This document shows, piece by piece, positions 1 to 10,429 of a stretch of DNA of 64,000 bases; within the stretch, counting starts at the first letter, position 1; each line of letters begins with the position of its first letter. This stretch comes from Cytophagales bacterium. GTDB taxonomy: Bacteria > Bacteroidota > Bacteroidia > Cytophagales > 172606-1. Location: the NCBI GenBank assembly GCA_030448185.1, contig JAUJNL010000001.1, forward strand, positions 1 through 64,000, in the 5' to 3' direction. The translations under genes were made by a program, and so were the position numbers. The notes below the pieces were generated by a model. The model ran no database searches. It had not been told where the DNA came from and was given only the letters and a program-made list of their open reading frames with translations.

Positions 1-368
1 GTCTGTTGGTTCTTGACTAAAATACTGGATTGGTGCGGAATAAAACATTTGCCCATAATGATATTAGATTCCATGGAAGGGCGTTCCAGTAACATGCCTA
101 ATTGCGTGACTTTAGCTCCCCTCACTTGAAAAGATTCTTTGACAATCTTTTCATTCAGGCGGTTGTTCACGACGATAGGTTCGGGTGGAGATTCTTTGCC
201 AGTTTGTTCATCAAAGATGACTACTCCAGCAGTAGGTTCGTGACTGACAAGTAATACGGTATCGGCTTCTTCAAAAAGCTGGGTAAAACGGCCTTTATTG
301 ATTTCTGGACTTGGTTTCCTACATGCTACCAGTACCAACAACAGTATCACCCAAGCGACTCTTTTCAT
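1..368 (-). CDS. Hypothetical lipoprotein, C-terminus outside window
   Basis: An open frame runs leftwards from an ATG at 366-368 to the window edge without a stop (122 codons seen). The first 16 residues form a short basic start, a hydrophobic stretch and a cysteine (MKRVAWVILLLVLVAC), which is a lipoprotein signal peptide, so the product is probably anchored in the cell envelope. I do not recognise the remaining sequence. It lies downstream of the small gene at 481-867 on the same strand, separated by 112 bp that contain a GC-rich hairpin and one arm of an inverted repeat. Function unknown. Confidence 0.6.
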   Translation of the reverse strand, partial: MKRVAWVILLLVLVACRKPSPEINKGRFTQLFEEADTVLLVSHEPTAGVVIFDEQTGKESPPEPIVVNNRLNEKIVKESFQVRGAKVTQLGMLLERPSMESNIIMGKCFIPHQSSILVKNQQ

Positions 369-463
369 CTTTTTGAATTGGTTATAACGAATCAACTGCA
401 ACTGTATACCGTTGGCTGCTGTTGAGGTAACGCGCTCAAGCGCCGCGGTTATCAGCTTGCAGG

Positions 464-893
464 GTGTTAGGCACAAGCTTTTATTTTAATAATTTACCTA
501 TTACTAAAGGTGTAAGCCCACTTATTATGATGGGAGCAATATGTACTAGTAGATCCAACCAATTTTGTTTTCTTCCTTCTTCATAGTCATACCATGAACT
601 TCTATTATAAGTGGGCTCTACTTTGTAGATACTTTTATATAGCTTTCTTAAAAGTTTATAAGCCACTACATAAGCAAATGGCATGATAAGAAAATCAGCT
701 TCATTCCCTTTAGGTATTTCATATTCCGGGTCTCTAATCCATATACCTATTCCACCAATAATTCCTGTCACAACTAATAGGATTATAAGGGTTGTATCAT
801 TTCGTAATTTTTTTGCAAATCCTAAAATGACTAATATTCCAAAAATAAGTGTTCCAATTTCTAGCATTTATTATCCTTGATTGTGCCTAACAC
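464..893. repeat. 13-bp inverted repeat boxing one gene (integron-like core sites)
   Basis: GTGTTAGGCACAA at 464-476 and its exact reverse complement TTGTGCCTAACAC at 881-893 flank the gene at 481-867. Read on the minus strand this gives GTTAGGC, 17 bp, the gene, then GCCTAAC; these match the GTTRRRY and RYYYAAC core consensus of integron attC sites. The minus-strand segment after GCCTAAC (down to about 369) has an imperfect hairpin around GCGCTTGAGCGC. I found no matching GTTRRRY closing that candidate attC. A 14-bp palindrome, ACGACATATGTCGT, sits at 902-915. Confidence 0.5.
481..867 (-). CDS. Small hypothetical membrane protein in a cassette-like unit
   Basis: A 128-residue protein with two hydrophobic helices in the first 45 residues (LIFGILVILGFA and LIILLVVTGIIGGIGIWI), a further hydrophobic stretch near residue 65, and a hydrophobic C-terminal end. 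It is probably an inner-membrane protein. I do not recognise the family. The gene is clearly more AT-rich than its neighbours, sits alone between the arms of a perfect 13-bp inverted repeat, and its ATG lies 17 bp after a GTTAGGC core. This suggests a mobile gene cassette or another transferred unit; that is inference. Confidence 0.6.
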   Translation of the reverse strand: MLEIGTLIFGILVILGFAKKLRNDTTLIILLVVTGIIGGIGIWIRDPEYEIPKGNEADFLIMPFAYVVAYKLLRKLYKSIYKVEPTYNRSSWYDYEEGRKQNWLDLLVHIAPIIISGLTPLVIGKLLK

Positions 894-962
894 TTGTGTA
901 TACGACATATGTCGTTTATTTTCCTTATGCCCGAAATCCCAGATCTGACCTTCGACATTCGA

Positions 963-2651
963 TCATGCATTGTCCTTTAGCATTCGGCGGAGAATCTTGC
1001 CGACGTTGGACTTGGGCAGGTCGTCCCGGAACTCGATGTATTTAGGACGTTTGTAATTAGTCAGGTTTTCCCGGCAGAAGGCCCGGATAGCATCTTCCGT
1101 GAGGTTAGGGTCTTTTTTCACCACAAAAAGTTTTACGGCCTCCGTTGACTTTTCGTCGGGAACGCCAATGCAGGCCGTTTCCAGCACGCCGGGACACTTA
1201 GACAATACCTCCTCAATGTCGCTGGGGAACACTTTCATGCCCGATACCACAATCATATCTTTTTTGCGGTCCACAATCCGGAAAAATCCGTCCTCGTTCA
1301 TCAGGCCGATATCTCCCGTTTTGAACCAGTCACCCTCAAAAACCTTTTCCGTTTCGTCCGGGCGGTTCCAGTAACCAGGGAACACCTGCGGACCCCGGGC
1401 CCAGAGTTCACCACTTTCACCCGGTAAGACATCGGTGCCGTCATCCTTTACGGCCTTGAGTTCAGTGCTTGGAAACGGCAGGCCAATGGTGCCGATGCGG
1501 GCCGTACCATCAATGGGATTGCAGGAGAGTACCGGTGATGTTTCCGAAAGGCCATATCCCTCGGCGGGAACGCAGCCAGTCTGCTGGACCCATTTCTCCG
1601 CTACGGCCGTTTGCAGGGCCATAGCTCCGGCCACGGTTATTTGCAAATGCTTCAGATTCAGTTGGCCGAAATCGGGGTGATTGAGCATCCCGTTAAACAG
1701 GGTATTGAGGCCGGTAATAATAGTGAAGGGGTAAGCCTTGGCTTCTTTGATAAACCCTTTCATATCCCGTGGGTTGGTGATGAGTACATTGAGCCAACCC
1801 GTTTTTAAGGCGGTCAGGGCGTTGACAGTCAGGGAAAATACGTGGTACAGGGGCAGCGCGGTAATAATAATATTCTGATCGGCCGAGCCTAGTTTGGGCT
1901 TCATCCATTCGTAATTCATCTCCAGGTTGGCAATAATATTCCGGTGCGTCAGCATGGCCCCTTTCGATACCCCGGTGGTGCCGCCGGTATATTGAATGAA
2001 GGCCAAATCTTTTCCGGATAAGGGCACGGATCTGAACGGTGAACGGCTTCCCCGCTGTAAGGTCTCATTAAAGGATACGGCTCCCGGCAACTGGTAAGCC
2101 GGCACCATTTTCTTCACGTATTTCACGACTGCATTGACCAGTAGTCGCTTCGGAAAGCCCATTAAATCTCCGATTTCGGTCACGATTACGTGCTTGATGT
2201 CGGTATTACCAATGACTTTCTGGAGGTTATAAGCGAAGTTGGCTAAGATTACAATGGCTTTTACCCCTGAATCTTTAAACTGGTGTTCCATTTCCCGCGG
2301 CGTGTACAGCGGGTTGGTATTCACCACAATCAAACCGGCCCGTAATGCCCCAAATAAAGCTACCGGGTATTGCATCAGATTAGGCATCTGAATCGCAAGC
2401 CGGTCGCCCTTCTGTAGTTTCAGGTCATTCTGTAAATAGGAGGCAAACTGCCGGCTCATTTCATCCAGTTGCTTAAAACTAATCTGTTTGCCCATATTGG
2501 CATATGCCGGCCAGTCGGCATACTTCCGGAGGCCCTCATCCATCAGTTCAGCCAGCGAGGTGTACCGATCAGGATTGACTTCGTGTGATATGCCTTTCGG
2601 ATAGTGCTTCAGCCAGATATATTTTTGTTCAGTTGCCTCTTTCGTTTCCAT
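963..2651 (-). CDS. fadD: Long-chain fatty acid-CoA ligase
   Basis: Activates fatty acids to acyl-CoA using ATP through an acyl-adenylate, feeding beta-oxidation or lipid synthesis. The 562 residues match the usual FadD length. Visible signatures of the ANL superfamily are the phosphate-binding motif YTGGTTGVSKGA near residue 220, GYGLSETSP in the middle, the GDWFKTGDIG and DRKKDMI hinge near residue 440, and a C-terminal lysine region ending NVGKILRRMLKD. The start ATG follows an AT-rich leader with a TAnnTTTG-type box about 50 bp upstream. An enoyl-CoA hydratase lies elsewhere in the window (29.9 kb) but is not linked. The family is sure; the chain-length preference is not. Confidence 0.93.
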   Translation of the reverse strand: METKEATEQKYIWLKHYPKGISHEVNPDRYTSLAELMDEGLRKYADWPAYANMGKQISFKQLDEMSRQFASYLQNDLKLQKGDRLAIQMPNLMQYPVALFGALRAGLIVVNTNPLYTPREMEHQFKDSGVKAIVILANFAYNLQKVIGNTDIKHVIVTEIGDLMGFPKRLLVNAVVKYVKKMVPAYQLPGAVSFNETLQRGSRSPFRSVPLSGKDLAFIQYTGGTTGVSKGAMLTHRNIIANLEMNYEWMKPKLGSADQNIIITALPLYHVFSLTVNALTALKTGWLNVLITNPRDMKGFIKEAKAYPFTIITGLNTLFNGMLNHPDFGQLNLKHLQITVAGAMALQTAVAEKWVQQTGCVPAEGYGLSETSPVLSCNPIDGTARIGTIGLPFPSTELKAVKDDGTDVLPGESGELWARGPQVFPGYWNRPDETEKVFEGDWFKTGDIGLMNEDGFFRIVDRKKDMIVVSGMKVFPSDIEEVLSKCPGVLETACIGVPDEKSTEAVKLFVVKKDPNLTEDAIRAFCRENLTNYKRPKYIEFRDDLPKSNVGKILRRMLKDNA

Positions 2652-2702
2652 ATCTTTATATTTATATTTAAAGAATTTTTAACAATTTATATTAGAATAA
2701 GA

Positions 2703-2710
2703 CAAATATA
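2703..2710 (-). promoter_or_regulatory. Candidate -7 box (TATATTTG) for fadD
   Basis: On the minus strand TATATTTG fits the Bacteroidetes TAnnTTTG box and lies about 50 bp before the fadD ATG in an AT-rich leader. I see no TTG-type -33 element at good spacing, so this is moderate evidence only. Confidence 0.35.
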
Positions 2711-3041
2711 ATAATAAATGCATACGACGGTACCACTCTTATTACATTTTCGACTGGCGACCCTGATTATCCGGTAAACAGGTAAACGAGTTAGGCAACC
2801 CACTCATTGCGCAAGGTGAGCTTACGGATAAATGATAAAACTCACAGGTCGAAAGGTAAGTGAATTGTGGGATAATGAGTTGCTTTATGAACCGGCTCCT
2901 CATAGATCAGGAATGTAACTTGAGCTCTTACTGCTTTTGCTACCCGCAGCGCAGGAAGAGATAAATATGAGACAGATCCTGGTTTCTTTGGAAATTACTA
3001 CTTATACTCACCTTAACACAATTACTTCTCTCCTATCCCTT
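2711..3041. other. Non-coding gap between divergent genes
   Basis: About 330 bases between fadD (minus) and the Gfo/Idh/MocA gene (plus). No convincing coding frame, hairpin terminator or long repeat is visible; it presumably carries the promoters of both genes. Confidence 0.4.
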
Positions 3042-9956: not shown

Positions 9957-10388
9957 ATGAAGACAGTAATGATTTTGACAATTATACTTTTGTGCGGAAT
10001 GGTATACAGTTGTAATCCAGGCAGTACCCCGATAGCTCCTTTCGGAATCTTCGGGAAGTGGCAATTGGTTAAACTTGAATCGGGCTGGACTGGGGAAGTG
10101 ATTGATGCGAAATCTCTTCCCTATCAGGAATCCTATGAGTTTCGATCAGACAGCACTTTCCGGAAATTCCGCACTGATAGCTTAGTAGCTACCGGCAAAT
10201 ACACTCAGAAAGACTTCAGCGGGGAAAAGTACATTGAATTATCCTTCGACAACGAAGAATCAAGTTCAGGTTGTACGAGAGGAAAAACGTATCTGCAACA
10301 ACCTGAAAGGGATGTCCTAATCGAAAACAATCAGCCCTGCGATGGTCCGAAGCTGTATTTCCAGCGGGTAAAGGAAAAGAAAGAATAG
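9957..10388 (+). CDS. Small lipoprotein, lipocalin-like (hypothetical)
   Basis: A 143-residue protein with a lipoprotein signal: MKTVMILTIILLCGMVYSC, cysteine at residue 19. The mature part (GKWQLVKLESGWTGEV, ESYEFRSDSTFRKFRTD, GKYTQKDFSGEKYIELSFD) has the look of the small lipocalin-like lipoproteins common in Bacteroidetes, in which a GxW motif opens a beta-barrel. ATG 9954 lies one codon earlier and would add one methionine. Ligand unknown. Confidence 0.65.
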   Translation: MKTVMILTIILLCGMVYSCNPGSTPIAPFGIFGKWQLVKLESGWTGEVIDAKSLPYQESYEFRSDSTFRKFRTDSLVATGKYTQKDFSGEKYIELSFDNEESSSGCTRGKTYLQQPERDVLIENNQPCDGPKLYFQRVKEKKE

Positions 10389-10429
10389 GATCCGAGATGA
10401 AAAATGCCTTTCCGGCAAGATATTGATGC

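Follow-up and report, generated by a model that had tools for sequence, protein, structure and literature searches.

A gene cassette of integron type in a Cytophagales bacterium and tyrosine integrases without the IntI patch as its probable drivers

Judged from its sequence, the stretch at positions 388 to 890 of the window is a genuine integron-like gene cassette. The window, i.e., the whole stretch of DNA that was analyzed, comprises the first 64,000 nucleotides of contig JAUJNL010000001.1 of a Cytophagales bacterium (GenBank assembly GCA_030448185.1; 6.40 Mb, 75% complete; G000). The stretch likely stands first in a short integron array, the likely second cassette of which is cut by the contig end. 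With considerable confidence, we explain it by a functional integron whose tyrosine integrase lacks the patch and belongs to a family that is common in Bacteroidota; in this integron, attC would act as a folded hairpin and a palindromic leader would be attI. The features read directly in the DNA are the anatomy of the cassette, the covariation of attC, the dispersed leaders, the integrase genes beside arrays elsewhere, the absence of the patch, and one cassette that two species have in common from core to core. The genomes compared include G001 (same genus), G002 (sister species), and G004 (a complete genome).

Cassette 1 (388-890, minus strand, 503 bp) runs from TTAGGC to the G of the last core of its attC site; it was delimited from cores and attC, with the limits of the unit set by analogy with the shared cassette described below. 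Its 5' core, G/TTAGGC, is located at 885-891 on the minus strand, as assigned from the sequence and from the core-to-core limits of shared cassettes, and the crossover would fall between positions 891 and 890. The cassette gene (481-867, minus strand) is an open reading frame for a putative membrane protein of 128 amino acids with hydrophobic segments, and its start codon is 17 bp from the GTTAGGC core, as the initial annotation had stated. This protein is without a known family: it has no match in NCBIfam, Pfam, PADLOC, or PHROGs, no viral relative was found, and a search of 186 other genomes returned one marginal match (E = 7e-4). The attC site, which is complete and about 91 bp long, occupies 382-472 on the minus strand. 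Read from 472 to 382, it consists of R'' (GCCTAAC, 466-472), the spacer ACC, L'' (CTGCAAG, 456-462), L' (GTTGCAG, 396-402), the spacer TTGATTC, and R' (G/TTATAA, 382-388), i.e., one GCCTAAC-type and one G/TT-type core around a hairpin with complementary L boxes. The second attC core had been thought missing, and it is the GTTATAA at 382-388.

An attI-like leader of about 43 bp (889-931, minus strand) stands in front of the cassette and is composed of a conserved block of approximately 16 bp, the 14-bp palindrome ACGACATATGTCGT at 902-915, a 10-bp spacer at 892-901, and GTT at 889-891. On the other side, a lipoprotein-like gene (open reading frame at 3-368, minus strand, start at 368) probably belongs to a second cassette; the window starts at the first base of the contig, and the gene runs off the contig end there. 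Its homolog in G002 (43% identical, 92 amino acids) lies between two attC sites. The idea of a possibly solitary cassette is therefore at odds with the adjoining cassette-like gene within which the contig ends. The 13-bp inverted repeat GTGTTAGGCACAA that had been described around the gene has exact copies at 464-476 and 881-893. Across the 6.40-Mb assembly, it was found once in the forward and once in the reverse direction, both at this locus, and a control with the reversed pattern gave 0 and 0. A search for the repeat alone would thus have ended the case, and it was the leader palindrome and the attC model that led further.

When a simple pattern of the site was applied to 13 loci of G000 and G002, 27 sites were found on the array strand and 1 on the other. 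An alignment of 24 sites showed compensatory changes in 13 of 13 pairs, of which the six outer pairs (the L boxes) had been picked for complementarity by the pattern and the seven inner pairs had not. In this alignment, 95.8% of the cells are paired, and the covariation score is 0.72 versus 0.05 to 0.13 in controls with slid partners. A covariance model (R1) trained on 7 sites of G000 and 17 of G002 found, at E ≤ 0.01, 68 sites in G000, 24 in G001, 100 in G002, 48 in G004, and 107 in G006 but none in the other 25 of the 30 genomes searched; R1 does not reach other families. The score of the attC in the window with R1 is 71.6 bits, this site being part of the training set, and a second model (R2), trained on G002 sites without any G000 sequence, gave it 61.8 bits (E = 1.1e-12). 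R2 also found 12 further sites among four searched G000 loci, in the three other loci. Folded singly, the hairpin is moderately better than shuffled sequences (z = -2.1 and -2.6), and no Rfam family matches in positions 1 to 3000. The GC-rich hairpin that had been noticed beside one core is hence modest by folding alone and gains its significance as a member of the site family. The attC sites from other Bacteroidota families (n = 29) share a similar layout, in which the far box is usually followed by 1 to 3 nt, a stem of 7 to 18 bp, and 5 to 6 nt before G/TT.

These results support the integron-like reading given in the initial annotation, with a complete attC, an R2 match, and many related sites. 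That annotation had also named what would speak against it, namely, a repeat found only once or no similar blocks next to other small genes. The exact 13-bp repeat is indeed unique to the locus, but the attC family has 68 sites in the same genome and the leader stands before cores at four further places, so the reading stands. Many attC sites of G000, single or arrayed, are distant from leader palindromes (contigs C7, C20, C58, C88, C113, C143, and C154, and C108 at 76624 and 149708), and cassettes may also enter secondary sites. At the start of contig C94 (L016:1-64), a cut-off attC match is oriented opposite to the array strand, which could be an inverted cassette or an assembly break.

The arrays behave as series of units limited by cores. 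In the long array of G002, 17 of 18 consecutive cassettes have a start core that is complementary in at least 6 of 7 bases to the end of their own attC (3.8 on average and at most 10 after permutation), and the same test in six other arrays gave 27 of 42 (5.6 on average and at most 12 after permutation). A cassette of 392 bp is common to G000 and G002 with 99.2% identity from GTT to the GTT of attC; its flanks are unrelated save for attC-like similarity, and the flanking proteins matched between the two genomes are 72 and 81% identical. A mobile unit limited by cores is accordingly seen for a G000 cassette other than that of the window. Two other species have a first cassette in common, each with a different attI site in front of it, and two nearly identical integrase loci differ from the core onward. 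The cassette beginning with GTTGTATGCCAGCGG (L016, reverse complement, 10031-10422; L093:16356-16747; L052) is present in G000 and G002 and also opens another G002 array; its only reading frame, of 100 amino acids, contains many copies of a ACGTTTGGC-like motif. That the locus is a small MITE-like transposable element, or a gene that happens to lie within an inverted repeat, is highly improbable: the 13-bp inverted repeat around a lone AT-rich gene would suit either, whereas the hairpin site is present at one end only, the arrays run head to tail with start cores that match the cassette's own attC end, and the site family is structured and numerous.

The palindrome of the leader has five exact copies in G000, all 10 bp before GTT and one of them at a contig end. 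Within three mismatches, eight leaders were found in G002 and none in G001, despite the 24 attC matches of the latter. The approximately 16 bp upstream of the palindrome are also conserved among leaders; beyond this block, no shared flank was found in the leaders examined, and the leader loci of G000 and G002 have little synteny. At 46 insertion points, an inverted repeat of at least 6 bp lies just upstream in 20, compared with 8.3% of shuffles. Matches to the leader pattern in G095, G186, G141, G020, G049, G081, G132, and G106 look like chance. From these sequences, we infer that the leader is attI and that it is present in several dispersed copies.

One leader of G002 is located directly 3' of a tyrosine recombinase gene on the same strand, and no comparable recombinase gene adjoins the other G002 leaders among the matches listed by the profile search. 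An integrase gene by attI and an array together are present in G002 and G004, and none was found in the 75% complete assembly of G000. This assembly contains no member of the patch-less family; the best match is XerD, and the others are weaker. The initial annotation had listed an integrase as missing; in the sister genome, a patch-less tyrosine recombinase stands by the same leader. It had proposed a search for a tyrosine recombinase with the integron-integrase patch, and the likely recombinase is a patch-less relative rather than a classical IntI.

The extra domain (patch) is treated as characteristic of IntI in passages of papers on an archaeal integron (PMC9668308) and on ancestral activity (PMC4792948), and it is regarded as the innovation by which integron integrases can act on folded single-stranded attC sites and serves to distinguish IntI from other integrases (PMC9024848, PMC4792948). 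The G002 integrase scores 212.8 bits with the integron-integrase model TIGR02249, below its cut-off of 265, whereas it scores 225 bits with NF040815 (cut-off, 220; the best NCBIfam match) and 184 bits with XerD. When it was aligned with the structure of the Vibrio IntI (PDB accession number 2a3v), the alignment broke at the place where IntI has approximately 60 residues and the G002 protein approximately 18. Among 97 extracted integrases, the distance from the Arg motif to HxLRH is 127 to 128 residues in 15 of 16 patch-bearing proteins of the IntI type (108 in the other one), 91 to 96 in Xer-like proteins, and 85 to 90 in the Bacteroidota family; it is 85 in the G002 integrase, which thus lacks the spacing of the patch-bearing type.

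Archaeal XerA resolves chromosome dimers, and the fold of the patch-less integrase appears XerA-like by prediction. The predicted structure of the integrase of Seonamhaeicola aphaedonensis (pLDDT = 88) gave its best alignments with XerA (Z-score = 25.6, RMSD = 12.8, 252 residues) and IntI (Z-score = 21.9, RMSD = 4.5, 255 residues), and, as the comparison lists IntI (2a3v) together with XerA, the fold by itself is compatible with membership of either group. In quick tree searches, the patch-bearing IntI proteins form one clade (SH-aLRT = 99), and the trees accommodate an ancestral as well as another placement of the patch-less integrases; one tree was made without five long or odd rows (L208, L167, L207, L198, and L166). 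The integrases of the order-mates of G000 group with those of Hymenobacteraceae and Cyclobacteriaceae, which points to Cytophagales as the order of the host. It is quite unlikely, in our estimation, that the host XerC/XerD moves the cassettes, as in Xer-exploiting integrative elements, with the nearby integrase being incidental. XerD is present in G000 and the integrase is predicted to be structurally close to XerA; against this, many genera have the integrase gene immediately 5' of the insertion point, and the two near-identical integrase loci part exactly at the core.

A profile of the patch-less integrase finds members in 124 of 392 Bacteroidota genomes at E ≤ 1e-50, not all of which head arrays. 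Most of the integrase genes have the G/TT point directly 3' on the same strand, followed by unrelated small genes. The two integrases of G004 are followed by 17 and 12 attC sites on their own strand and 0 on the other. Arrays outside the reach of R1, which gives no site in 25 of the 30 genomes, rest on a chain test, in which a GTT within 420 bp must have its first nine or more bases recurring inverted, followed by another such GTT. The chained cassettes number 7 in Seonamhaeicola aphaedonensis CECT 8487 (attC pitch steady near 127 bp) and 6 each in Flavobacteriaceae S0862, G105, and G039 (in the last, pitch mostly near 63 bp). In a first set of 26 loci, chosen after promising cores had been seen, partly by eye, the chain length was at least 2 in 17, 1 in 8, and 0 in 1. 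The unbiased count comes from a set of 18 new loci (20 fetched, 2 lost to the open reading frame filter), for which the rule was fixed beforehand: 10 of 18 have at least two chained cassettes, versus 10 of 360 shuffles. The opposite strand of these loci gave chains of at least 2 in 5 of 18; this control was set aside for the shuffles because inverted cores read alike from the far end, so that it is not neutral. In a separate check, an inverted core of 9 to 10 nt was found at the attI-like GTT in 15 of 22 loci, and the loci without one were L131, L137, L141, L147, L148, L149, and L171, several of which have little downstream sequence. The same pattern of an insertion point 3' of a patch-less integrase was also seen in metagenome-assembled genomes of Spirochaetota (L159, inverted core of 10 nt) and Firmicutes (L149, 7 nt), where binning errors are possible.

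The patch-less integrase family is broader than integrons, because integrases with an ssb gene downstream yielded no convincing array. In genus g2 of the same family, no attC match was found in three genomes. In L062 to L064, L066, L067, L069, and L070, all from other Bacteroidota, the patch-less integrase gene is followed by an ssb gene at the place of attI, and a link between the handling of single-stranded DNA and the patch-less recombinase is conceivable.

Alternatively, the window could hold the remnant array (CALIN) of a classical integron whose cassettes were mobilized by a patch-bearing IntI since lost or unassembled. Arrays without an adjacent integrase are described as common in bacteria (PMC9668308), and in G000 attC sites occur without a leader in many locations. 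On the other hand, none of 148 relative genomes contains a canonical integron integrase above the TIGR02249 cut-off, and patch-less integrases adjoin arrays in G002, G004, and many other Bacteroidota; we consider a leftover array unlikely.

In the integron driven by a patch-less integrase, cassettes would be excised and inserted at the G/TT of the cores. Because its stems covary in sequence while the architecture is kept, attC would react as a folded hairpin, presumably in single-stranded form, with unpaired spacers of 3 nt and approximately 7 nt beside the stem. By its position, the palindromic leader would be the insertion site attI, and the patch-less integrase, likewise by position, would carry out both excision and insertion and act in trans on the dispersed copies of attI.

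The system resembles classical integrons (IntI, attI, and attC) in its G/TT cores, in the R'', L'', L', and R' boxes with a conserved hairpin, in its co-oriented small genes, and in an insertion site by the integrase gene. It differs in that the integrase is without the IntI patch and scores below the IntI cut-off, in that the integrase gene reads towards the array, and in that several attI-like copies lie away from the integrase in the genus of the window. The chromosomal integrons of Treponema are similar in having intI transcribed towards attI, in the same direction as the cassettes (PMC3607928), but were described with integrases of the IntI type and are set apart by that description. NF040815, named "site-specific tyrosine recombinase/integron integrase", and XerA share the fold, NF040815 being the best NCBIfam match, whereas the gene here heads cassette arrays. 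The rAID clusters of gut Bacteroidales, defined by a recombinase upstream of at least two co-directional genes with a GC content under 41%, also have a predicted tyrosine recombinase, co-oriented short genes, and conserved intergenic motifs (PMC12247911). The available sections of this preprint present them as recombinase-headed arrays of immunity genes, say that their biogenesis is under active study, and do not contain the word integron (PMC12247911). In the window, the contig breaks off before any integrase gene would come into view. In two plasmids, of Bacteroides ovatus (L324) and Parabacteroides distasonis (L325), a rAID-like arrangement comprises a TetR gene, a patch-less integrase, and co-oriented immunity genes (SMI1/KNR4, Imm26, Tdi1, and PoNi). 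In both examples, 85 residues separate the Arg motif from HxLRH, as here; unlike here, the inverted-core test was negative (chains of 0 and 1), and in the tree their integrases are not near those of the genus of the window.

One complete integron in Bacteroidetes proper, that of Salinibacter ruber M1, is given in the IntegronFinder 2.0 survey (PMC9024848). The title of a cited paper holds the patch to be necessary for integron integrase activity, and no report of patch-less integrons was found in a search mostly of papers outside subscription journals. The points counted against the integron driven by a patch-less integrase are this literature on the need for the patch, the lack of a family integrase in G000, the lack of a leader in G001, the ssb-linked integrases without a convincing array, and genus g2 without attC matches in three genomes.

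A related arrangement is found on plasmid p80-1-2-tetX3 of Acinetobacter indicus (L323, 5052-7200), in which a patch-less integrase is followed by the palindrome ATACGCCATTTGGCGTAT, 8 nt, the core GTTATGTGCC, and then tet(X3). The N-terminus of this integrase is shorter, and its closest relatives are in the Bacteroidota family (70% to a Cytophagales member). After tet(X3) there is an attC-like stretch, the far box of which equals the core in 7 of 10 bases as judged by eye, and the automatic core test was negative. Judged from this layout, an integron of the patch-less type seems to have tet(X3) as its first cassette.

We lean, if only slightly, towards the view that Bacteroidota have their own integron lineage, with recombinases that never gained the IntI patch and attI located 3' of the integrase gene. 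Such a lineage would perhaps represent a stage before the patch or an independent invention of cassette capture, and in the genus of the window one integrase would serve dispersed attI copies. It may underlie the rAID arrays, and tet(X3) may have reached Acinetobacter through it, as a first cassette. If this is right, a large pool of cassettes in environmental and gut Bacteroidota has been overlooked; among resistance genes of clinical interest, tet(X3) at least is found next to an integrase of this type and an attI-like site. Structured arrays of cassettes with a patch-less integrase at their head would be a link in integron evolution, and the question of how integron recombination arose would become open to direct tests.
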